A DNA stretch of 64,000 bases from Deltaproteobacteria bacterium. Lineage in GTDB: Bacteria > Desulfobacterota > Binatia > UBA1149 > JAJCZL01. Shown here one piece after another: positions 463-11,127 of the stretch (position 1 is its first letter; the number at the start of each line of letters is the position of its first letter). The notes under the pieces are model-generated. The model did no database searches. It worked only from the letters and a program-made list of their open reading frames with translations, and was not told where the DNA came from. The position numbers and the translations under genes are program-made. The stretch lies in contig JAJCZL010000033.1 in assembly GCA_029262415.1 (NCBI GenBank), forward strand, positions 1 through 64,000. Reading direction: 5' to 3'.

Positions 463-1512
463 TCAGCCCCCGGGCTCGACTACGACGCGCACTACCCCAC
501 CGTCCTTGGCGGCTAGGTGTTGCAAGGCATCGTTGGCACGCTTGAGCGGATAGCGTGCGGAAACAGACGCGCTCAAGTCTAGACGTCCGGCGGCGATAAG
601 ATCGTAGAGATCGGTAATATCGCTACGGTCCATGCCGAACGAACCTAGCACGGCCTGTTCGCGACCGACGAACGCCATCAAGGGCGGAAGCGAGGGACGC
701 CCGGTCCCTACGCCGGCGATGACCGCACGGCCGGCCTTGTCGAGAGAGCGAATCGCAAGTTCAACGGTGTCGGCGCGACCGATGAACTCCAGTGCCAGGT
801 CGAGCCCCCTACCACCGAGGTGCCTACGAATGTGCTTGGCGACGTCACCTTCGGCCGGGTCCAAACTGAGGTCGGCACCGACGCTGACGGCGCGATCGCG
901 CGCGGCTGCATTTACGTCTACAGCGATGATCTGTGCCGCGCCCATCATACGCGCGAGCATGACCGCGTGGGTGCCGAGCCCGCCGCACCCAAACACGCCG
1001 ACGGTCTCTCCGGCGCGAAGCCTGCCGCGCGAACGCAAGGCGTGAAAAGGTGTAGCTACGCCGTCTGTAACGATCGCCCCGACGTCGAAGGGTACGCCGT
1101 CGGGGAGCACCATGACCGACCGGGCCGGTACTGCTACGTACTCGGCCAACGCTCCGTCGCGTGCCATACCGTAAACCTGCGACACCTCACACAGAGACTC
1201 ACGGCCGGCGAGACAAAACCGGCACGCCCCGCAACAAGCAGAGGGAAAAAGAGCGACCCGATCTCCCTTCCGTAAACCGGCGACATCGCTACCGATCGCC
1301 GCAATGAGACCGGCCGCCTCGTGGCCCAACGTTATCGGTGTGCGCATTACCGGCAAGTCGCCGTCTACGGCCAGGTGCAAATCGGTACCACACAATCCAC
1401 ATGCGCTGACTTTGACGAGCAGCTCCTGCGCACCCACATCGGGCACCGGAACCTGCTCGACTCGTAAGGGTTCGCCCGCTTTGATTAACCGTGCAGCAAG
1501 CATACTCGCCAT
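463..1512 (-). CDS. Zinc-dependent medium-chain alcohol dehydrogenase
   Basis: A 349-aa medium-chain dehydrogenase/reductase. Catalytic zinc ligands are visible as C41 in 'CGLCGTD' and H64-E65 in 'GHE', with D150 at the usual third-ligand region. The structural zinc site is C94, C97, C100 and C108. The nucleotide-binding turn is G175-C-G-G-L-G180. It should interconvert an alcohol and a carbonyl with NAD(P)(H). The start has a strong AGGAGGAG ribosome site. In this operon it could oxidise a hydroxyacyl-CoA or reduce the aldehyde or ketone released by aldol cleavage. The exact substrate cannot be read from the sequence; relatives include 6-hydroxycyclohexene-carboxyl-CoA dehydrogenases and general alcohol dehydrogenases. 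Confidence 0.9.
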   Translation of the reverse strand: MASMLAARLIKAGEPLRVEQVPVPDVGAQELLVKVSACGLCGTDLHLAVDGDLPVMRTPITLGHEAAGLIAAIGSDVAGLRKGDRVALFPSACCGACRFCLAGRESLCEVSQVYGMARDGALAEYVAVPARSVMVLPDGVPFDVGAIVTDGVATPFHALRSRGRLRAGETVGVFGCGGLGTHAVMLARMMGAAQIIAVDVNAAARDRAVSVGADLSLDPAEGDVAKHIRRHLGGRGLDLALEFIGRADTVELAIRSLDKAGRAVIAGVGTGRPSLPPLMAFVGREQAVLGSFGMDRSDITDLYDLIAAGRLDLSASVSARYPLKRANDALQHLAAKDGGVVRVVVEPGG

Positions 1513-1630: not shown

Positions 1631-2290
1631 CTATTCCGTCTCACTGGGAGACGGTGCCAGACACGACCCCAGAAGGTGGTCCCACAACGGGAACGACACA
1701 TTGAAGTTTCCACGAGCCATGAGCGCGGGGTCGTGATGCCTCCTGTGGTGGATACGCACCCAGCGAACCAGGGATCTGCGTCCGATCCACGACTCGGGCG
1801 GAAAGTGATGGATGGTATGGAACCATTCGTAGACCAAGTAGTAGGCCAGGATGCACGCGTAAAACAGGTATCCGAGATCAGGCGAAACTACGCGGCCGAG
1901 TACCATTGCAACCGGCACATTCGCAATGAGAATCGCGGGTAAGAACCACCACGGGAACAGGATGTAGTAGAGTTCGGAAGCATCTCGGATGACCATCGAC
2001 TGCTCGGTGTAAACAACGTGATGCTCGAGTGTGTGGCGTTGGTAAAGAAGACCTAAAAAACGGGTACGATGGTGCATCGGCCCACGGTGGATCCACCACT
2101 CGAAGCCGTTCGCGAACACAAAAAACCCGACAAAAAACAACCACAGCCCCGGCGTGGCCTGGTCGATTCCGCGCAGGAGCAATCGGATAGTCAGCAGCGC
2201 GACGACGTTGATCAAAACGAAGTGCGCGTACCCAGAGTACCAACGCGGAATTGCGGCAAGAAGCTCTCGGCGCTTTTCTTCTATCGGCAT
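1631..2290 (-). CDS. Fatty acid hydroxylase / sterol desaturase superfamily membrane protein
   Basis: A 219-aa integral membrane protein with about four hydrophobic spans (roughly residues 22-40, 48-64, 106-130, 138-156). The di-iron histidine clusters of the superfamily are all present: H68/H73/H74, H86/H90/H91, H158/H161/H162 and H181/H182/H185/H186. Members use O2 and a reductant to hydroxylate or desaturate lipids or sterols, or act on carotenoids. The ATG follows GGGAGAAAC. It sits between an acyl-CoA dehydrogenase and an alcohol dehydrogenase, so it could introduce a hydroxyl group that the dehydrogenase then oxidises. No ferredoxin or reductase partner is encoded nearby. Confidence 0.85.
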   Translation of the reverse strand: MPIEEKRRELLAAIPRWYSGYAHFVLINVVALLTIRLLLRGIDQATPGLWLFFVGFFVFANGFEWWIHRGPMHHRTRFLGLLYQRHTLEHHVVYTEQSMVIRDASELYYILFPWWFLPAILIANVPVAMVLGRVVSPDLGYLFYACILAYYLVYEWFHTIHHFPPESWIGRRSLVRWVRIHHRRHHDPALMARGNFNVSFPLWDHLLGSCLAPSPSETE

Positions 2291-2328: not shown

Positions 2329-3468
2329 CTATTTCACGAGATAGCGGGCGATGGTTTCGCGCTGAATCTCGCTGGTGCCCTCGCCTAGTTCGAGGACTTT
2401 ACAATCGCGGTAAAAGCGTTGTGCGGGGCTCTCGCTCATGTATCCCTGGGCGCCGCACAGGTGCAGAGACCGCTCGCACGCCCAGGTAGCGGTCTCGGAG
2501 GCGAACAGCTTGGCCATGGAGGCTTCCTTGTCGAAGGGCTTACCCGCGTCGACGAGACGCGCCGCGGCCAGTGTGAGCTGCCAAGCTGCCTCCAGGCGCG
2601 TAGCCATGTCGGCGAGCGTAAAGCGAACAAATTGCTGCTTGACGAGCGGCGCGCCGAACTGAACGCGCTCACGGGTATACGCAGCTGCATTCTCCAGCGC
2701 GGCGCGGCCGAGCCCGACACCGAACGATGCGGCCGCGATGCGGCCCAACACCAGTACCTTCATGGCGGCGAGAAATCCGCTGCCTTCTTCGCCAAGCCGG
2801 TTGCTCACAGGTACACGGCATCCATCGAAGACGATCTCCGACATTTCCGAAGCGCCCATCCCCAGCTTCTTCATCGGTTTGCCGGTACTCACCCCTTCGC
2901 GGGTGCGTTCGACCAAGAACAAAGACATCCCTTTGAGGCCTTGGTCGGGAGCGGTCGAGGCTACCACGACCATGAAGTCGGCAAAGGGGGCATTGGTGAT
3001 GTATAGCTTGCTCCCGTCCACCACGTATTCGTCGCCGTCGCGGCGAGCGCGCGTGGATACACTGGAAACGTCGGCGCCGGCACCCGGCTCGGCGTAGGCC
3101 CAACACCCCACAGCAGTCCCACGCAGGGCGGCCGACAAGACTTCATGATGCGATTTGTCGCCAAGGTGAAGAAGTGCGCTGCACGCGAGAGCGGTATGGA
3201 CGTAGATCCCCAGCGCGGCTCCCGCCGAGCCGCGTGCCAACTCAGAGCACAGTATCGCGTAGAGGACCGATCCTCCGCCACTGCCGCCCACCGACTCGGG
3301 AAACGCGGTTCCGAGCCAACCCAGCGCGCCCAATTTTTCGAACAGCTCACGCGGGTAACGTTCTTCCTGATCCCATCGGCTCGCGTGGGGAATGACTTCG
3401 CGTTCCACGAAGGCACGCACCTGTCTTTGCAATTCGGCTTCGTCGTCTCGTAGCAACGCATCGGTCAT
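2329..3468 (-). CDS. Acyl-CoA dehydrogenase (first copy)
   Basis: A 379-aa flavin-dependent acyl-CoA dehydrogenase. The reading frame is open further upstream, but the family N-terminus and a GGAG 8 nt before the codon fix ATG 3468. The flavin segment reads 'AYAEPGAGADVSS', the substrate loop is in the middle, and the C-terminus carries 'GEGTSEIQRE' with the catalytic glutamate E363 in its usual place. It should make a trans-2-enoyl-CoA, passing electrons to ETF. It is one of two divergent copies in the operon. Paired subunits are known in steroid side-chain dehydrogenases, so the two could form a heteromer or act on different chain lengths. Confidence 0.93.
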   Translation of the reverse strand: MTDALLRDDEAELQRQVRAFVEREVIPHASRWDQEERYPRELFEKLGALGWLGTAFPESVGGSGGGSVLYAILCSELARGSAGAALGIYVHTALACSALLHLGDKSHHEVLSAALRGTAVGCWAYAEPGAGADVSSVSTRARRDGDEYVVDGSKLYITNAPFADFMVVVASTAPDQGLKGMSLFLVERTREGVSTGKPMKKLGMGASEMSEIVFDGCRVPVSNRLGEEGSGFLAAMKVLVLGRIAAASFGVGLGRAALENAAAYTRERVQFGAPLVKQQFVRFTLADMATRLEAAWQLTLAAARLVDAGKPFDKEASMAKLFASETATWACERSLHLCGAQGYMSESPAQRFYRDCKVLELGEGTSEIQRETIARYLVK

Positions 3469-3517: not shown

Positions 3518-4297
3518 TCATTTTCCTGTAAACACCGGCTTTCGCTTCTCTCGGAACGCCGCCAGTCCTTCCCGGTGGTCCTCGCTTTGTAAGCACTGCA
3601 CCTGAGCGAAGATCTCATAGTCGAACTCGCCCTCCATCGTGTAGTCGAGCGAGCGGCGGATCGCCTTCTTCGTGTAGGCGAGCGCGCGCGGCGGACCGTC
3701 GGCCAGACGCCGGGCGAGCTTGTCAACCGTTTCATCGAGTTGGTCGGCGGGTACTACCCGGGTGACGAGACCGATTCGCTCGGCCTCTTCGGCGTCGATC
3801 AGGCGACCCGACATCATCAAGTCGGTAGCTCGCCCGAGCCCGACCAGGCGCGGCAGAAAGTATCCCGCCGACATGTCGCAGCCGGCAAGTCCGATGGGGA
3901 CGAACGGTGCCCCTAATCGGATGCCGGCGGCGGCGATGCGAAAGTCGCCGGCCATGGCCAACCCCAAACCTCCGCCGACGGTGTCGCCGTGCAGACGAGC
4001 AATGACCGGTTTTTCCAGAGAACAAATCGCGCGGACAGGATCGAGGTAGTGGTCCACGATCTTCTCCCACTCGGCGGAGTCCCTGGGGATCATCTCGCGC
4101 TGGTCGGCGCCGGCACAGAATACCCGCCCGGCGCCGGCAAGAACGATCACCCGAGCCTGTGAATCCGTGGCAAGCTTGCCTAACGCGGCTATAAGTTCAT
4201 CGAGGGTCGGAATGTCTATGACATTGAGACGGTCGGGCCGGTTCAACGTAATGGTGCCGATGCCGTCGTCGACCTCGACCTGTATGGCGTCATTCAT
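3518..4297 (-). CDS. Crotonase-family protein lacking both hydratase glutamates
   Basis: A 259-aa enoyl-CoA hydratase/isomerase fold protein. The oxyanion-hole segments are present ('FCAGAD' at 60-65 and 'GGG' at 108-110). The two glutamates of rat mitochondrial hydratase (E144 in GGGxE and E164 in PE) are replaced here by G112 and F132. A conserved-looking 'AGCDMSAGYFLPRLVG' follows, and D141 in it could act as an alternative base. It is therefore probably not a classical hydratase; isomerase, decarboxylase, hydrolase or ring-opening chemistry is possible. The start follows AAAGGAG at 9 nt. It lies between the amidohydrolase and the first acyl-CoA dehydrogenase. Confidence 0.88.
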   Translation of the reverse strand: MNDAIQVEVDDGIGTITLNRPDRLNVIDIPTLDELIAALGKLATDSQARVIVLAGAGRVFCAGADQREMIPRDSAEWEKIVDHYLDPVRAICSLEKPVIARLHGDTVGGGLGLAMAGDFRIAAAGIRLGAPFVPIGLAGCDMSAGYFLPRLVGLGRATDLMMSGRLIDAEEAERIGLVTRVVPADQLDETVDKLARRLADGPPRALAYTKKAIRRSLDYTMEGEFDYEIFAQVQCLQSEDHREGLAAFREKRKPVFTGK

Positions 4298-4315: not shown

Positions 4316-5170
4316 CTACGCTTGGATTCCGAATACGCGCATCGCGTTGCTGCGCAGGATCTTTTCGTTGACCTCGTCTGAGAAGCCGAGCTTCAGCACA
4401 TCGTCGTAGGCACGTTTGAAGTCACACAGAGGGTAGTCCGTCGCCCAAATGACCTTGTCTTGTCCGTAGCCCCCCGCGTATTTTTTGAATGACTCGGGCC
4501 AGCGCGATGCATAGCGGGCCGATGTCTCGACGTAGAGATTCGGATGCTTCCAGGCCAGAGTCATCATTTCCTCGTGCCAAGGTTGGCCGAGATGGCAGCC
4601 GAGAATCTTCAAATCGGGGAAGGCTAGGGCAACCTCGTCGAGGTAGATCGGACGACCGCATTCGCTTGGAAGTAACGGCCCCGTATGCCCGACCTGAATC
4701 GCTACAGGAACGCCGAGTTCGCAGGCTTTGATGTAGACGGGCCAGTACATCTTGTCGACGGGTGGCGCCCCCGTCATATCGTTGCCGTAGGCGTAGGGCT
4801 CGAGACGAATGCAACGCAGCCCGAGGTCGCCTACCAGGTATTCAACGCGCGCGGCCACCTCCATGGGTTTTCCGCGCGGGTCGATGGTGCCGGCACCGAC
4901 GAAACGGTCGCGGTGTGCGCGCACTGTTTCGGCGACGGTTTCGTTCGAGCAAATCTCGAAGCCGCCGTACCCAAACGCCGACAGTACCAACCATTCGGTG
5001 TCAGCCGCGTCCATCTCAGCAAGCACTTGCTCGACGGTAAACCCAGCGTTAAAACGCTCGGCGACGCCGTAACGCTCAAAGATAGACCAGAACTGTTGCG
5101 GCCATTTGTCACGAGTACCGGCGGGTATAAGTGTTGCCCACGCATCGACCGCTCCGATTTTGTAGCCCAT
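4316..5170 (-). CDS. Amidohydrolase-2 family protein with atypical N-terminal metal motif
   Basis: A 284-aa TIM-barrel protein of the amidohydrolase-2 (ACMSD-like) group. Later strand motifs are present: H in 'QVGHTGP', 'CHLGQPWHEEMM', and the aspartate in 'WATDYPLCD'. The usual first-strand D-x-H-x-H is instead 'DAWATL', so two metal ligands are missing. Relatives perform non-oxidative decarboxylation or hydrolysis of C-C or C-N bonds, but with this change neither metal content nor activity can be assumed. The ATG follows GGAGAAAACAA. Its place among CoA genes suggests a decarboxylase- or hydrolase-like step on a pathway intermediate. Confidence 0.85.
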   Translation of the reverse strand: MGYKIGAVDAWATLIPAGTRDKWPQQFWSIFERYGVAERFNAGFTVEQVLAEMDAADTEWLVLSAFGYGGFEICSNETVAETVRAHRDRFVGAGTIDPRGKPMEVAARVEYLVGDLGLRCIRLEPYAYGNDMTGAPPVDKMYWPVYIKACELGVPVAIQVGHTGPLLPSECGRPIYLDEVALAFPDLKILGCHLGQPWHEEMMTLAWKHPNLYVETSARYASRWPESFKKYAGGYGQDKVIWATDYPLCDFKRAYDDVLKLGFSDEVNEKILRSNAMRVFGIQA

Positions 5171-5186: not shown

Positions 5187-6338
5187 CTAACGCGCTGTCG
5201 CCATTTTGGCGATAATCTCTCTCATCACTTCACTCGATCCCGCTCCAATGGTGAAGGCCGCTACGTCGCGATACAGGCGGCACACCAGGTAGTCCTCCAT
5301 GTAGCCGTAGCCGCCGTGAATCTGTAAAGCTTCGTCGGCTACACGCTTGACCGCACCGGCCGTAAACAGTTTCGCTATGGAGACTTCACGACCGGCAGCT
5401 TCCCCGTGGCTCAGCAGATAGGCCGCCGAGTAGGTAAGTTGCCTGGACGCCTCGATCAACACTTCAAGATCGGCCAAGCGGTGGCGCCAAACCTGGAAGT
5501 CGATGATCGGTTTTCCGAAAATGTTTCGTCCAGATCCGTACTCGTAGGCGAGCCGATACAATTGGGTCATCAGTCCGCAGGCCAAGGCCGATAAGACCAG
5601 CCGTTCGCCTTGGAACAGATGCATGATCGCCTTGAACCCGTCCCCCTCACTGCCGAGAAGATTGGCACGCGGCACACGGCAACCGTCGAAGAACAGTTCA
5701 GCGGTATCGCCCGCGTGGTTGCCCATTTTCTCGAGCTTACGACCAACTGAGAACCCGGCGATATCGGTGGGACAGACGATGGTGCTTATTCCCGATCCAC
5801 CCTCGCCGCCGGTTCTAACCGCCAGCAATATGAAGTCGGCTCTTGTTCCGTTCGTGATGAAAATCTTACTGCCGTCAATAACGTACTCGTCGCCTTCGAG
5901 CCGAGCCGTAGTTCGTAGGGCGGCAACGTCGGATCCTGCCGACGGTTCGGAGATACCAAGCGCGAATATCTTTCGGCCGGCGATGGCGTCGGGGAGAAAG
6001 CGTTGTTTTTGTTCCTCAGTACCGAGCGCGGTAACGATCGAGGTAGCCAATTCGCATTGCACCATGAGGTTAACCGCTGTTCCTACGCTGCCGCACTGGA
6101 CCAGCTCCTCGCACAGAATCGCGGTGTAGGTGAAATCCAAGTCGCTGCCGCCGTACTCGGCCGGGTGACGCACTCCTAGGTAACCGAGTTCGCCGACGCG
6201 CGTGAAAAGCCCGCGCGGAAAGATTCCCTCGCGTTCCCACTGGTCGGCGTTCGGCACCATCTCTTTCTCGACGAACGAGCGCACCGAACGCCGGAAGCTC
6301 TCGTGCTCTTCTCTAAAATAGGGACTCAGCTTGGCCAT
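5187..6338 (-). CDS. Acyl-CoA dehydrogenase (second copy, isovaleryl-like C-terminus)
   Basis: A 383-aa acyl-CoA dehydrogenase starting at ATG 6338, four bases past the acyl-CoA ligase stop. The flavin-binding segment 'GISEPSAGSDVAALR' is canonical. At the position where most relatives have Y-E-G-T-x-E-I-Q-R, this protein reads 'TIGAGSSEVMREII', so the usual catalytic glutamate is absent. The same change is known in isovaleryl-CoA dehydrogenase, where the base comes from another helix, and I could not place that residue with confidence here. This points to a branched-chain substrate. It probably works with the other copy at 2329-3468. Confidence 0.92.
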   Translation of the reverse strand: MAKLSPYFREEHESFRRSVRSFVEKEMVPNADQWEREGIFPRGLFTRVGELGYLGVRHPAEYGGSDLDFTYTAILCEELVQCGSVGTAVNLMVQCELATSIVTALGTEEQKQRFLPDAIAGRKIFALGISEPSAGSDVAALRTTARLEGDEYVIDGSKIFITNGTRADFILLAVRTGGEGGSGISTIVCPTDIAGFSVGRKLEKMGNHAGDTAELFFDGCRVPRANLLGSEGDGFKAIMHLFQGERLVLSALACGLMTQLYRLAYEYGSGRNIFGKPIIDFQVWRHRLADLEVLIEASRQLTYSAAYLLSHGEAAGREVSIAKLFTAGAVKRVADEALQIHGGYGYMEDYLVCRLYRDVAAFTIGAGSSEVMREIIAKMATAR

Positions 6339-6342
6339 GACT

Positions 6343-7932
6343 TTATTGGACTCCGTGCACGGAACTTTCCACCCCGTGCCAGTACGGTTTGCGAACCTCG
6401 CGCCGTAGAATTTTTCCCACGGGACTTTTGGGGAGATCGGCCGCAAAGCACATTTCTTTCGGCGTCTTGAACCCCGGCAAAGATGAACGGCAATGAGAGA
6501 TGAGTTCGGTCTCCGACACCGACGCTCCAGGCCGCTGTACAACCACAGCGACTACAGCTTCTCCCCACCGTTGGTCGGGTCGGCCGATGACGCAACACTC
6601 AAGAACCGCAGGATGAGCCTGGAGAACCTCTTCGACCTCTCGCGGAAAGACGTTCTGGCCGCCGGAAATGATCATGTCGTGTTTGCGGTCGCAGATGTAT
6701 AGGTAGTGGTCTTCGTCGCGTCGTGCGATGTCGCGTGTGTGCAGCCAACCGTCGCGCAACACAGCCGCGGTCTCGTCTTGACGATTCCAGTAAGACGACA
6801 TCACCCACGGTGCACGCACGCAGATCTCGCCCTCAAGGCCCGGCTCGGACACCGTACGTCCGTTGTCGTCCACCAGCCTTACCTCGGCGAAACCGTCGTT
6901 GCAGCGACCAATCGACCCCAAGCGCGCAGGGTTCTCGCCTAGCCAGTGCAAATGTTCGGCTGGACCCATGAGTGTGTTGAGTCCGTAGGCCTCGGTCTGC
7001 CCAAACCCGGTAACAAGGCCGGCACGGGGAAAGGCCTGCATGGTTCTGGCTACTAGCCGCGCGGAGGCGGGCGCCGCTGCATACACGATGGTTCTCAACG
7101 AGCTGAGGTCGCGGCGTGTTACGTCGGTGTGGTCAACCAACGCCTGCATCAAGGTCGGGACCATGAGCATGATGTTGACGCGGTGGCGTTCGATGGCCGC
7201 AAGGATGTCGCCGGCGTCGGGTGCGCATACGATCATGGTTGCGGCGTGGGACCAGCCGGCATCCATCAATCTGCCGCCGAAGTGACTGAGGGCGAACTGC
7301 CCCAGAACAACGTCGCCGTCTTGCATCGCCGTCCACTGCGACCAACCGGCGATGGCTGCGGCGACCGCCGCGCGTGAGTGCACAACGCCCTTGGGACGCC
7401 CGGTGGTTCCCGAGGTGTAGAGAATCTGCGCGGCAGCGGTGGGATCCGCTTCTGCGCCGAGCGGTTCGGCAGCAAGATCGCACGCGACGGCGTCGTCGTA
7501 CGCAACCATCCGGCCGCTCGATACGCCGCCCGCCGCTGCGACGGAAATCACACGGCTGACTTGGGATTGATCCAGAAACCGTGAGCAGCGCGGAGCCGCC
7601 TGCGCATCGAGGCAAACGACGATTTTGGCTCCGCTGTCGCCGACGATAAAATCGTGGTCGTGATCGGGTAGGAGCCCGAGCATGGGCACGTAGACACCGC
7701 CCGCTCGTGCTACCGCACAGACGGTTTCCATGTAGCGGCGACCGTTCCTTTGAATAATGGCTACGCGATCACCCGGAGCGAGTCCGGCGCCGGCCAGATA
7801 GGCGGCCAATGAAGAAGCACACCCATCAAGCTCGCTGTACGTTGTCTGGCCATCTTCGTCGATGACCGCGACTCGCTCAGCGTGGCGTTGCGCGGCAGAG
7901 GCCAAACACGAAGAGTAGGGATGCTGGATCAA
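6343..7932 (-). CDS. AMP-forming acyl-CoA synthetase (ligase)
   Basis: A 529-aa member of the ANL family that activates a carboxylic acid to its CoA thioester through an acyl-adenylate. Visible motifs are the P-loop 'YTSGTTGRPKG', 'GFGQTEAYG', the hinge 'GWLHTRDIARRDEDHYLYI' followed by 'DRKHDMIISGGQNVFP', and the C-terminal catalytic lysine in 'SPVGKILRR'. The frame is open for another 66 codons, but TTG 7932 is chosen: it follows AGGGGAG and overlaps the upstream stop codon as TTGA. It is the likely entry enzyme of the pathway encoded by this operon. Substrate specificity is not readable. Confidence 0.92.
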   Translation of the reverse strand: MIQHPYSSCLASAAQRHAERVAVIDEDGQTTYSELDGCASSLAAYLAGAGLAPGDRVAIIQRNGRRYMETVCAVARAGGVYVPMLGLLPDHDHDFIVGDSGAKIVVCLDAQAAPRCSRFLDQSQVSRVISVAAAGGVSSGRMVAYDDAVACDLAAEPLGAEADPTAAAQILYTSGTTGRPKGVVHSRAAVAAAIAGWSQWTAMQDGDVVLGQFALSHFGGRLMDAGWSHAATMIVCAPDAGDILAAIERHRVNIMLMVPTLMQALVDHTDVTRRDLSSLRTIVYAAAPASARLVARTMQAFPRAGLVTGFGQTEAYGLNTLMGPAEHLHWLGENPARLGSIGRCNDGFAEVRLVDDNGRTVSEPGLEGEICVRAPWVMSSYWNRQDETAAVLRDGWLHTRDIARRDEDHYLYICDRKHDMIISGGQNVFPREVEEVLQAHPAVLECCVIGRPDQRWGEAVVAVVVQRPGASVSETELISHCRSSLPGFKTPKEMCFAADLPKSPVGKILRREVRKPYWHGVESSVHGVQ

Positions 7933-8768
7933 GAATCGCTCCCCTTGCGCGGCGGCAGATGTCGCAAGGCCGGGCCGGTATAGCGGGCACCGAGTTGGGC
8001 GGGGATGATTCTTAAAGGAACGCCCGATTGAATCTCTTCCACAGCGTGGGCTACCAGCGCCGGACCGTAGACCAGAGCGCCGAGACCGCCGATCTCCAGG
8101 GGATGCCAACCGCGATCGACCATCACGCATGCGATCATCCCCGCGAGATTTACGGGTAAGCTACCGCCTGTACCGCGACGTAGACCCAACGCCCGGGCAA
8201 TCTCTTCGAGAAGCCTGCATGCGCTTCCCCAAGCACCTGCAGGCTCGACCAATCGCCGCAAAGCAGCAGCGCGCGGCTCGACCTGTTTGTGCAGTGGGTG
8301 TCCGAGGCCGGGCAGATATCCCGGTGCCGCCAACCAATGCTCGACGACCGTGTTGGCAGCTTCTCCCGTTTCGAGTGCCGCGCACAACATCTCCGCGCAC
8401 TGCTGGGGAGACCCGGTCACGGTTCCACTTGCAAGCATGCCGCCGGCTAGCGCCGGGATTACACTCTCGGGCGAAGCAGACGCGGTATAGCGTGCAGCGC
8501 ATGCTGCCGAGTTGATCAACTGCTGATCGACAGCGCTCTTAAGTACTGCCTCAAGCACCTGGGCATCGGTCTGCGTCGCCAGCTCTCCACGGATGACCAG
8601 ATGAACGACTTCGACGTAGGACAGCCGTGCGATCACTTCTTCGATCGGATATCCGCGCAACAGTATCTCGCCTTCACCGGCGCGACTGATGGCGGTGCTC
8701 CAGTAGTCCGAGTAGTCCCCGGAGGCGACATAGGATCCGATGCTGCGGCGTTTCTTTCCGGCTGCCAT
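7929..8768 (-). CDS. Citrate synthase / citryl-CoA lyase-like protein with altered active site
   Basis: A 279-aa protein of the short citrate synthase-like group that includes citryl-CoA lyases. The motif around the second catalytic histidine is kept ('LGHPLHKQVEPRA', H157). The segment that carries the catalytic aspartate in relatives (P-x-N-V-D-G) reads 'LPVNLAGMI', so A209 stands at the aspartate position. A histidine is also not evident at the first catalytic site ('AGGMLASGTVTG'). It may still cleave or form a C-C bond next to a CoA thioester, or be a binding protein. It overlaps the ligase gene by 4 nt and follows the hydratase by 7 nt. Confidence 0.82.
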   Translation of the reverse strand: MAAGKKRRSIGSYVASGDYSDYWSTAISRAGEGEILLRGYPIEEVIARLSYVEVVHLVIRGELATQTDAQVLEAVLKSAVDQQLINSAACAARYTASASPESVIPALAGGMLASGTVTGSPQQCAEMLCAALETGEAANTVVEHWLAAPGYLPGLGHPLHKQVEPRAAALRRLVEPAGAWGSACRLLEEIARALGLRRGTGGSLPVNLAGMIACVMVDRGWHPLEIGGLGALVYGPALVAHAVEEIQSGVPLRIIPAQLGARYTGPALRHLPPRKGSDS

Positions 8769-8775
8769 GGTCCGC

Positions 8776-9570
8776 CTATTTGCCCTTGAACCGTGCCGGT
8801 CGTTTTTCGGCGAAAGACGCTACTCCCTCACGCGCGTCTTCACTTTGGCGTACCGGTTCGGCAAGGAACTGTTCGAGTCGCAGGCCTTCTTCCAATGAAA
8901 GATCGAGCCCGCGCAGAGCGGCCTCTTTCGCAGCTCGCACTGCGAGCGGTCCGTTCGAGCAAATTGTCGCCGCCGTCGACAGCGCTTCGTCGAGTAACCG
9001 GCCGGCGGGCGTGATCACGCGGTTGACCAAACCGATCCGCAACGCGGTCTCGGCATCGATAGCCCGTCCGCTCAATATCATTTCCATGGCAATGCCGAGT
9101 GGGACGGCGCGAGCAAGACGCTGTGTGCCGCCAGCGCCGGGAACGATGCCCCAGCGCACTTCGGGCAGACCGAAGCTTGCGTGAGGCGAGGCGAAGCGGA
9201 AGTCGCAAGCCAATGCCAACTCGAGACCACCCGCCAAGCAATGGCCGTTGACGGCCGCGATGATCGGTTTGAAGATCGGCAGGTTGCGCGTGATCCCACC
9301 GAAACCCGGCTGATGTTCCGAGCGTTGCCTGCGCTCGCTCGGGGTAAGCTCGGCGTAGAATTCCCGGACTCGGCGCAGATCGGCGCCGGCGCAGAACGAC
9401 TTCTCGCCGCTGCCGGTGAGCACCGAAACCCAGAGCTCGTCATCGTCGCGAAAACGCACCCACGCAGCGTTGAGTTCATCTGCGGTCTCCGGATCGATCG
9501 CATTGCGCGCCTCGGGCCGGTTGATGGAGATCACGGCCGTGTGCTTATCTACCTCGAAATCAATCGGCAT
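8776..9570 (-). CDS. Enoyl-CoA hydratase with intact catalytic glutamates
   Basis: A 264-aa crotonase-family protein. Both hydratase glutamates are present: E117 in 'AGGLELALACD' and E137 in 'GLPEVRWG', followed by 'GIVPGAGGTQRL'. The oxyanion segment 'FCAGAD' is at 59-64. It should hydrate a 2-enoyl-CoA to a 3-hydroxyacyl-CoA, which is the substrate an Ltp2-type retro-aldolase would cleave. ATG 9570 follows GAGAAGGAC and lies 11 nt inside the DUF35 gene, implying translational coupling. It contrasts with the glutamate-free crotonase at 3518-4297. Confidence 0.93.
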   Translation of the reverse strand: MPIDFEVDKHTAVISINRPEARNAIDPETADELNAAWVRFRDDDELWVSVLTGSGEKSFCAGADLRRVREFYAELTPSERRQRSEHQPGFGGITRNLPIFKPIIAAVNGHCLAGGLELALACDFRFASPHASFGLPEVRWGIVPGAGGTQRLARAVPLGIAMEMILSGRAIDAETALRIGLVNRVITPAGRLLDEALSTAATICSNGPLAVRAAKEAALRGLDLSLEEGLRLEQFLAEPVRQSEDAREGVASFAEKRPARFKGK

Positions 9571-9991
9571 GTCCTTCTCTCTTGTTTGCAAGCACCGGAA
9601 CAAACACGGGAACTAGAAATCCGTTCTCACGCGGCTCGAGTTCGAGGTTAAGGGTGACGCCTACACGCAGAAGCGTCGGGTCATCGCAGCGGATACCAGC
9701 CATCAGACGCGGCCCTTCGGAGAGTTCGACGAGACCGACTACATAAGGGAGAGAGTCGGCAAAAGCCGGATCATACGCACGGTGATAGGTCGCCCATGTA
9801 AGCAAGCGCGCGTACCCCGCGCTGTCGATGAACTCGGTGTCGGTGGCCCAACATCTAGGACATATCGGTGCCGGCGGTAACCAGCACTGACCGCAAGCCC
9901 GGCAGCTTTGATAAGAGAAACGGCCTTCCCGCAAACGCTGCCAGTAGACGTGCGAGATCGGATCGGGCCTCGGCACCGGTTTGTGGCTCAT
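9560..9991 (-). CDS. DUF35 OB-fold / zinc-ribbon acyl-CoA-associated protein
   Basis: A 143-aa protein with an N-terminal rubredoxin-like zinc ribbon ('CRACGQCWLPPAPICPRC', residues about 31-48) followed by the DUF35 OB-fold region ('TWATYHRAY', 'YVVGLVELSEGPRLMAGI'). DUF35 proteins are obligate partners of thiolase-fold enzymes in several systems, for example ChsH2 with the aldolase Ltp2 and the DUF35 link protein between archaeal thiolase and HMG-CoA synthase. Its gene overlaps the thiolase-fold gene by 4 nt (ATGA), which strongly suggests a stoichiometric complex. Confidence 0.93.
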   Translation of the reverse strand: MSHKPVPRPDPISHVYWQRLREGRFSYQSCRACGQCWLPPAPICPRCWATDTEFIDSAGYARLLTWATYHRAYDPAFADSLPYVVGLVELSEGPRLMAGIRCDDPTLLRVGVTLNLELEPRENGFLVPVFVPVLANKREGHAD

Positions 9992-11127
9992 GCCGCTGTG
10001 CTCGCAAGAATCAGTGTCGCGTGAGTGTTGAGTCCGAGTCCGTGGCCGCTGACCAAGCCGAGTCGTGCTTCATCGACTTGACGGTCGCCGGCCTCACCTC
10101 GCAACTGGCGCACCGCCTCTACAATATGCAACATCCCCCCTCCGTAGCCTTCGGCGAGTAGGCCCCCCGCTGTGTTGACCGGCAGACTACCGCCGGGGCC
10201 GGTCTCCCCGGCGGCAACGAAGGCCCCCGCTGCGCCCGGGCGGCAAAATCCGTAATCCTCGAGTTGCATGAGAACGACGATGGTAAAGCAGTCGTATAGT
10301 TCGCATAGATCGATGTCGGCCGGTCCGACACTGGCCATAGCGAACGCGGTCGCTCCCGACCGCGCCGCCGGAAGCTGTCGTAGGTGGCGTGCGTCAAGCA
10401 TCGGTGCCAAACAGTGGGCTTGGCCCATGCCGGCGATACGCACCGGTGCGGGTCCGTCGGCCGGCAGTTGGCGAGCGGCCGAGACTACGACCGCGGCGCC
10501 GCAATCGGAGACCGGACAACAGTCGTACTTGCGCAGAGGCTCGACGACGTACGCGGAGTCCAGATAAGCTTCAAGATTGAGCGGTTCCCTGAACTGGGCG
10601 TGTGGGGTTAGAGTCGCATGCGCTCTGGCAGTGACCGCGACCGCGCCCAACTGAGCTTCGGTGGTTCGGTAACGCTCCATGTGCAAGCGTGCGGCCATCG
10701 CATGCAGGCCCACCGCTCCGAACAATCCGTGCGTAGCGTCGTCGCCGCGGCCATACTCAAATGTGCCCGGCGCCGATACCGGCGCGTCACCGTAGACGCA
10801 CAGGCAATGCGTGCACAGGCCGGCTGCGATCGCGTTTGCGGCCCGCTGCACCATTGACACCGAACTCGCGCCGCCGAGAACTTCTGTGCCACAGAGGTTC
10901 GGAGACATACCCAGCATTTCTCCGAGTCTGAGATAGTGGGGTGTGATGCCGTCTATGACCGGTTGCGTATAGCCGGGTTCAGCCAACAGACCGTCGACGG
11001 CGGCGAGTTCGAGGCCTGCGTCCGCCACCGCGGCTCGGCACGCTTGGGCCTGGAGCGACCAGGCCGTCGCGCCCGCCAGTTTCCCTACCGGGGTTGCTCC
11101 GACCCCTGAAATGACCGTGTCAGGCAT
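9988..11127 (-). CDS. Thiolase-fold protein resembling Ltp2-type retro-aldolases
   Basis: A 379-aa protein of the SCPx/lipid-transfer thiolase group and the first gene of the operon. The nucleophile loop reads 'VLGGASSVSM' (85-89 G-G-A-S-S), so no cysteine is available for Claisen chemistry. Where thiolases have E-x-H-D-C-F, it has 'ELYDCFT' with Y278; where they have a second histidine after S-E-A, it has 'LLAEGYGGGMLHI' with Y328. A tyrosine pair in this arrangement is described for the Ltp2 steroid side-chain aldolase. Together with the coupled DUF35 gene this supports retro-aldol cleavage of a 3-hydroxyacyl-CoA with a tertiary or branched C3. The start ATG has no Shine-Dalgarno; a promoter just upstream gives a very short leader. 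Confidence 0.9.
   Translation of the reverse strand: MPDTVISGVGATPVGKLAGATAWSLQAQACRAAVADAGLELAAVDGLLAEPGYTQPVIDGITPHYLRLGEMLGMSPNLCGTEVLGGASSVSMVQRAANAIAAGLCTHCLCVYGDAPVSAPGTFEYGRGDDATHGLFGAVGLHAMAARLHMERYRTTEAQLGAVAVTARAHATLTPHAQFREPLNLEAYLDSAYVVEPLRKYDCCPVSDCGAAVVVSAARQLPADGPAPVRIAGMGQAHCLAPMLDARHLRQLPAARSGATAFAMASVGPADIDLCELYDCFTIVVLMQLEDYGFCRPGAAGAFVAAGETGPGGSLPVNTAGGLLAEGYGGGMLHIVEAVRQLRGEAGDRQVDEARLGLVSGHGLGLNTHATLILASTAA

Follow-up and report, generated by a model that had tools for sequence, protein, structure and literature searches.

A predicted non-steroid retro-aldolase of the thiolase fold, with a DUF35 partner and a mixed active site, in a conserved gene cluster of Binatia and Proteobacteria

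The window, a 64,000-nucleotide stretch of DNA from a Deltaproteobacteria bacterium of the class Binatia (contig JAJCZL010000033.1, positions 1 to 64,000), encodes a 379-residue thiolase-fold protein together with a small DUF35 protein. This gene pair probably specifies a retro-aldolase, i.e., a thiolase-fold carbon-carbon lyase, and its DUF35 partner, predicted to act on a non-steroid 3-hydroxyacyl-CoA. Homology gives good support to an Ltp2-like retro-aldol function exercised with a DUF35 partner: a glycine stands in place of the thiolase nucleophilic cysteine, a tyrosine pair is present as in Ltp2, the DUF35 protein is nearest to ChsH2(DUF35), and a hydratase gene adjoins. What is new here is the separate clade, with its mixed active site, to which the protein belongs, and the undescribed, widely conserved gene cluster in which it is encoded.

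The hydratase, DUF35, and aldolase genes (Table 1) all overlap: the hydratase gene (ECH1) overlaps the DUF35 gene by about 11 nt, and the DUF35 gene overlaps the aldolase gene by 4 nt, as the original prediction had stated. The 379-residue protein matches the Pfam family Thiolase_C_1 (E 4e-49), with Thiolase_N below threshold. No NCBIfam model reaches its cut-off; the best, PRK06158, reaches 281 where 421 is required, and the protein therefore lies outside every curated family. The 143-residue partner contains the OB fold and zinc ribbon of DUF35 proteins (OB_ChsH2_C and zf-ChsH2, PF01796/PF12172) encoded beside a thiolase-fold gene, and its best PDB match is ChsH2(DUF35) (6ok1_B, E 4.8e-17). 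The C4 zinc finger is kept in the window protein and in its group, and the DUF35 gene adjoins the aldolase gene in nearly all orthologous loci.

Table 1. Genes of the operon that contains the predicted aldolase, in operon order.
Feature	Coordinates	Strand	Remarks
Thiolase-fold protein, predicted retro-aldolase	9988..11127	(-)	379 aa, ATG...TGA
DUF35 partner (OB_ChsH2_C + zf-ChsH2)	9560..9991	(-)	143 aa, C4 zinc finger Cx2Cx10Cx2C
ECH1, crotonase-fold enoyl-CoA hydratase	8776..9570	(-)	both catalytic Glu present
Citryl-CoA-lyase-like protein	7929..8768	(-)	citrate-synthase catalytic residues replaced, 39/39
AMP-forming acyl-CoA synthetase	6343..7930	(-)	start approximate
Acyl-CoA dehydrogenase 1 (ACAD1)	5187..6338	(-)	
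Amidohydro_2 family protein	4316..5170	(-)	without N-terminal HxH
ECH2, crotonase-fold	3518..4297	(-)	GCDM motif conserved; neither hydratase Glu retained
Acyl-CoA dehydrogenase 2 (ACAD2)	2329..3468	(-)	start approximate
Histidine-rich membrane hydroxylase-like protein	1631..2290	(-)	called from sequence; no Pfam match
Zn-dependent alcohol dehydrogenase	463..1512	(-)	

The AlphaFold2 model of the 379-residue protein, built from a 65-sequence alignment, has a mean pLDDT of 92.5 and a pTM of 0.93. Foldseek places 4u4e, Sal, and Ltp2 at the top of the ranking for this model. VIA-align Z scores are 52.6 for TbSLP, 51.9 for Sal, and 51.4 for Ltp2 (rmsd 1.9-2.2 A), as against 38 for classical thiolases.

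The nucleophile loop (L84-G85-G86-A87-S88-S89) has no cysteine. G86 aligns with the thiolase cysteine, corresponds to Gly89 of Sal, and is invariant in 65 of 65 family members. The cysteine loss claimed in the original prediction is real at this position; what the prediction overlooked is C280, two residues past Y278 in the ELYDCFT motif, an invariant residue that falls on the catalytic Cys304 of CtSal (a match obtained by residue count in the 9myr alignment, allowing for a 24-residue tag). Y278 does stand, as proposed, in place of the HDAF histidine of thiolases, and it aligns with Y302 of CtSal. When the protein is aligned to 6ok1 by HMMER, Y278 is paired with TcLtp2 Y294, C280 with H296, and Y328 with Y344, in one ungapped block of about 94 residues. 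The companion claim that Y328 (in AEGYGG) occupies the site of a second thiolase histidine varies with the aligner: HMMER sets Y328 against the GHP histidine, and in the MAFFT alignment that histidine falls within a 3-residue deletion immediately ahead of Y328. By alignment, Y278, C280, and Y328 would all face the active site. With a tyrosine pair as in Ltp2 and a cysteine as in Sal, the window protein combines both published aldolase sites (Tyr-Cys-Tyr), and because of C280 it is equally Sal-like.

Among 39 orthologs, G86, H142, Y278, and C280 are invariant (39/39), and Y328 and H362 are found in all except one (38/39). In that sole exception (L048, 10001-11107), a phenylalanine at 328 accompanies a tyrosine at 362, a double swap which suggests that the two positions interact. 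H142 and H362 set the ortholog clade apart from other aligned relatives, in which these positions are Tyr and Glu/Gln; histidine stands at both in a small group from the class Binatia outside the clade (L019, L022, and L024). G86, H142, Y278, C280, Y328, and H362 make up the predicted active-site set. Some orthologous loci were retrieved from contigs by the patterns DGITPH and LYDCF, and since the latter contains the motif, YDCF conservation in distant relatives is partly a product of selection; relatives found pattern-free (L013-L035) likewise have YDC.

Three strongly supported clades are present in the tree of thiolase-fold relatives: the window orthologs (100/99), Ltp2 (100/100), and Sal (100/97). 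This tree was enlarged with plasmid-encoded Ltp2, IpfD, and Sal relatives, the first tree having contained single long-branch references. The Ltp2 clade takes in IpfD and the Novosphingobium and Vibrio sequences; YDHF is found in all six of its members, including IpfD, and YDCF in all window orthologs. Grouping the orthologs with Ltp2 as one clade is weakly rejected (AU p=0.032), and grouping them with Sal is strongly rejected (AU p=1.1e-6). Judged from its sequence, the window protein is a member of a separate third clade, neither Ltp2 nor Sal, whose orthologous loci number about 42 and come from genomes of Binatia and Proteobacteria and from genomes labelled Myxococcota. The YDC...Y combination recurs in an adjacent group of the tree (L013-L033), from genomes of the same class as the window's. 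The original assignment to an Ltp2-type aldolase survives in the tyrosine pair, the glycine, and the DUF35 partner, but not in the motif (there is no YDHF) or in the tree, which includes the Ltp2 relatives and puts the window protein in a clade of its own.

The steroid C3 side-chain aldolase TcLtp2-ChsH2(DUF35) (PDB 6ok1), in which Y294 acts as catalytic base and Y344 as acid (PMC12329534), is like the window pair in its ungapped tyrosine pair, the glycine at the nucleophile position, and the C4 DUF35 protein. It differs in clade and sequence (33-35% identity), in having YDHF with His296 where the window protein has YDCF, and in the fusion of DUF35 to MaoC, whereas DUF35 is free-standing in the window. 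The bile-acid C5 side-chain aldolase CtSal-CtShy(DUF35) of Comamonas testosteroni (PDB 9myr) has the thiolase fold in common with the window protein, along with the glycine at the nucleophile position, the aligned Tyr and Cys of YDC[YF], the DUF35 partner, and a hydratase encoded alongside. CtSal uses Y302 and C304 of YDCY, activity being abolished by Y302F and C304A/S/H, and has a glutamine at the position of TcLtp2 Y344 (PMC12329534). The window protein (31-35% identity, separate clade) has YDCF rather than YDCY and a tyrosine at 328 that is absent from Sal. It has GGLLAEGY where Sal has GGQLSFGQ, and Gln347 and Gln352, said to activate Cys304 in Sal, are not conserved, which counts against the retro-aldolase reading. 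The DUF35 zinc finger is C4 in the window and C3H1 in the Sal partner, and the hydratase is a crotonase in the window cluster, which has no steroid link, and MaoC with Sal.

IpfDE of ibuprofen degraders, reported to be a proteobacterial, non-steroid retro-aldolase that releases propionyl-CoA (PMC9195938), resembles the window in its adjoining thiolase-like, DUF35, and crotonase genes (plasmid pIBU218, L131; the IpfD label on this gene comes from the plasmid, position, and product, not from a locus tag). IpfD differs in belonging to the Ltp2 clade, in being 58.6% identical to TcLtp2 and having YDHF, and in its different cluster. IpfDE, CtSal, Comamonas Ltp2 (a known aldolase outside the Actinobacteria; PMC12502768), and Ltp2 homologs (58-68% identity) on Novosphingobium, Vibrio, Sphingopyxis, and Rhizorhabdus plasmids take away the novelty that the original prediction saw in an aldolase outside that group. 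The closest solved sequence, the Sphaerobacter thermophilus ‘thiolase’ (PDB 4u4e, 39-40% identity), also lacks the nucleophilic cysteine and has a YD-F motif, but it reads YDSF (Ser for Cys) and has no tyrosine at 328. The top structural match, the SCP2-thiolase-like protein TbSLP of Trypanosoma brucei (PDB 5ab4-5ab7), shares YDCF but has no DUF35 partner and is only 24-26% identical. SCP2/SCPx thiolases have the nucleophilic cysteine where the window protein has G86.

The operon runs from 11127 to 463 on the (-) strand, with intergenic gaps of -22 to 118 nt. Ten of its genes are found again, in varying arrangement, across the 42 orthologous loci, mostly at 45-80% identity (lower for DUF35). 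Distant aldolase relatives are without the citryl-CoA-lyase-like and amidohydrolase genes and without a close synthetase. Homologs of the membrane protein, which resembles the fatty acid hydroxylase/sterol desaturase type, occur in few loci (L049 and L057; weak in L052, L056, and L059). ECH1 is the predicted supplier of 3-hydroxyacyl-CoA. Judged by its residues, the citryl-CoA-lyase-like protein is a refitted citrate-synthase fold: relative to 6hxp, H is replaced by T118, D by A209, R by Y234, and H by Q82 in 39/39, and H157 (GxGH) is retained. Its gene is found in most of the 42 loci. Across the Amidohydro_2 group the HxH metal motif has become A.DaWAT, with QVGHTGP, GCHxGQPWHE, and WATDYPL conserved; the GCDM motif of ECH2 is invariant. 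That several neighbours have no assigned role, or lack residues on which catalysis in their families normally depends, counts against the retro-aldolase reading. Motif (not profile) searches of the 42 orthologous loci found a 3-hydroxyacyl-CoA dehydrogenase motif in 0 ORFs, a MaoC hydratase motif in none, and the canonical thiolase GHP motif in only 1 locus. No paper on the ten-gene cluster was found in a search that reached few subscription journals.

Hydration followed by retro-aldol cleavage fits this gene content, because the oxidative half of beta-oxidation is missing and a competent hydratase accompanies DUF35 and a thiolase fold that lacks its cysteine. The CoA ligase of the cluster would convert an acid to its acyl-CoA, an acyl-CoA dehydrogenase would desaturate it, and the adjacent crotonase would hydrate the product to a 3-hydroxyacyl-CoA. 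The aldolase and DUF35 proteins probably form an alpha-beta-beta-alpha heterotetramer, as do Ltp2-ChsH2(DUF35) and Sal-Shy(DUF35). In the proposed reaction, Y278 would accept the proton of the 3-hydroxyl, which the backbone NH of G86, at the site of the thiolase nucleophile, would also hold in place. Cleavage of the C2-C3 bond would leave an acyl-CoA enolate to be protonated by C280 (as in Sal), by Y328 (as in Ltp2), or by both, and the products would be a ketone or aldehyde and acetyl- or propionyl-CoA. A more ambitious proposal combines a new CoA-dependent route by which a non-steroid, beta-blocked substrate would be degraded without the oxidative half of beta-oxidation, a hybrid Tyr-Cys-Tyr aldolase with two clade-specific histidines, and a refitted citrate-synthase-fold protein; taken as a whole, it is tentative and somewhat unlikely.

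That the pair is instead an Ltp2-clade steroid side-chain aldolase, using the tyrosine-pair mechanism in a sterol or bile-acid degrader, is very unlikely. Both tyrosines align with those of TcLtp2 and the DUF35 protein is nearest to ChsH2(DUF35), but the clade is separate by the AU test, a cysteine takes the place of the YDHF histidine, the MaoC motif is absent from the 42 loci, and the steroid-ring marker KstD, a 3-oxosteroid 1-dehydrogenase, passes its cut-off in none of the genomes searched. The KstD model (NF005882/PRK07843, which we take to be the model for this enzyme) has no match in the window's genome and exceeds its cut-off in 0 of 44 genomes, 25 of the 44 being without a match even at E 1e-40. 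A steroid role for the cluster was accordingly rejected. More room, though still not much, can be given to carbon-carbon bond formation in a biosynthetic route, by an aldol or Claisen-type reaction like those of PhlC or the HMG-CoA-synthase-coupled thiolases. DUF35-bound thiolase folds do include synthases such as PhlABC (5m3k, a structural neighbour of the model), and the citrate-synthase-fold protein of the cluster comes from another family that works on carbon-carbon bonds. PhlC and HMG-CoA-synthase-coupled enzymes of the thiolase type retain the nucleophilic cysteine, however, which the window protein has lost, and the presence of a CoA ligase, a pair of acyl-CoA dehydrogenases, and hydratases gives the cluster a catabolic look.

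A further reading, as a decarboxylase or some other enzyme that forms an enolate, is suggested by TbSLP, the top structural neighbour, which has the same YDCF motif and decarboxylates malonyl-CoA very slowly; yet that rate is negligible, Sal shows no such activity, and TbSLP has itself been proposed to be an aldolase (PMC12329534), so there is little chance that this reading is correct. The loss of textbook catalytic residues in several cluster proteins could point to a non-catalytic scaffold or CoA-binding subunit. Such a role is highly improbable for the thiolase-fold protein, in which the conservation of Y278, C280, and H142 in every ortholog, and of Y328 and H362 in all except one, over deep divergence is unlike a decayed site.

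For the preferred retro-aldolase, a new, non-steroid substrate is plausible and a steroid unlikely; a beta-branched or ring-bearing acyl-CoA can be suggested with low confidence. Genes for a class I benzoyl-CoA reductase (A-D) and for had, oah, and dch-like proteins lie directly upstream of the aldolase gene in L052 (812-9113), the reductase genes a few kb from it. Of 41 carrier genomes, 13 have subunit B of this reductase above cut-off, and 13 have BoxB. Among Burkholderiales, subunit B is found in 8 of 9 carriers against 7 of 300 genomes in the order (Fisher p ~1e-11, phylogenetically uncorrected, in a test prompted by L052). Because the reductase and BoxB are both absent from the window's genome and from other Binatia-like carriers, a benzoyl-CoA link was set aside as a side lead.

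The acid/base residues differ between Ltp2 and Sal on what is one and the same scaffold, so that a clade with both sets makes the identity of the working residue, and the change of site, directly testable. The ten-gene cluster, common to Binatia and Proteobacteria, has the look of a catabolic pathway not yet described, several of whose proteins are without the catalytic residues usual in their superfamilies, and thiolase-fold/DUF35 aldolases would extend well beyond steroids and ibuprofen. Elsewhere in the superfamily, one plasmid of Vibrio alfacsensis, a fish isolate, carries both Ltp2-type and Sal-type aldolase gene groups (L134 and L135).
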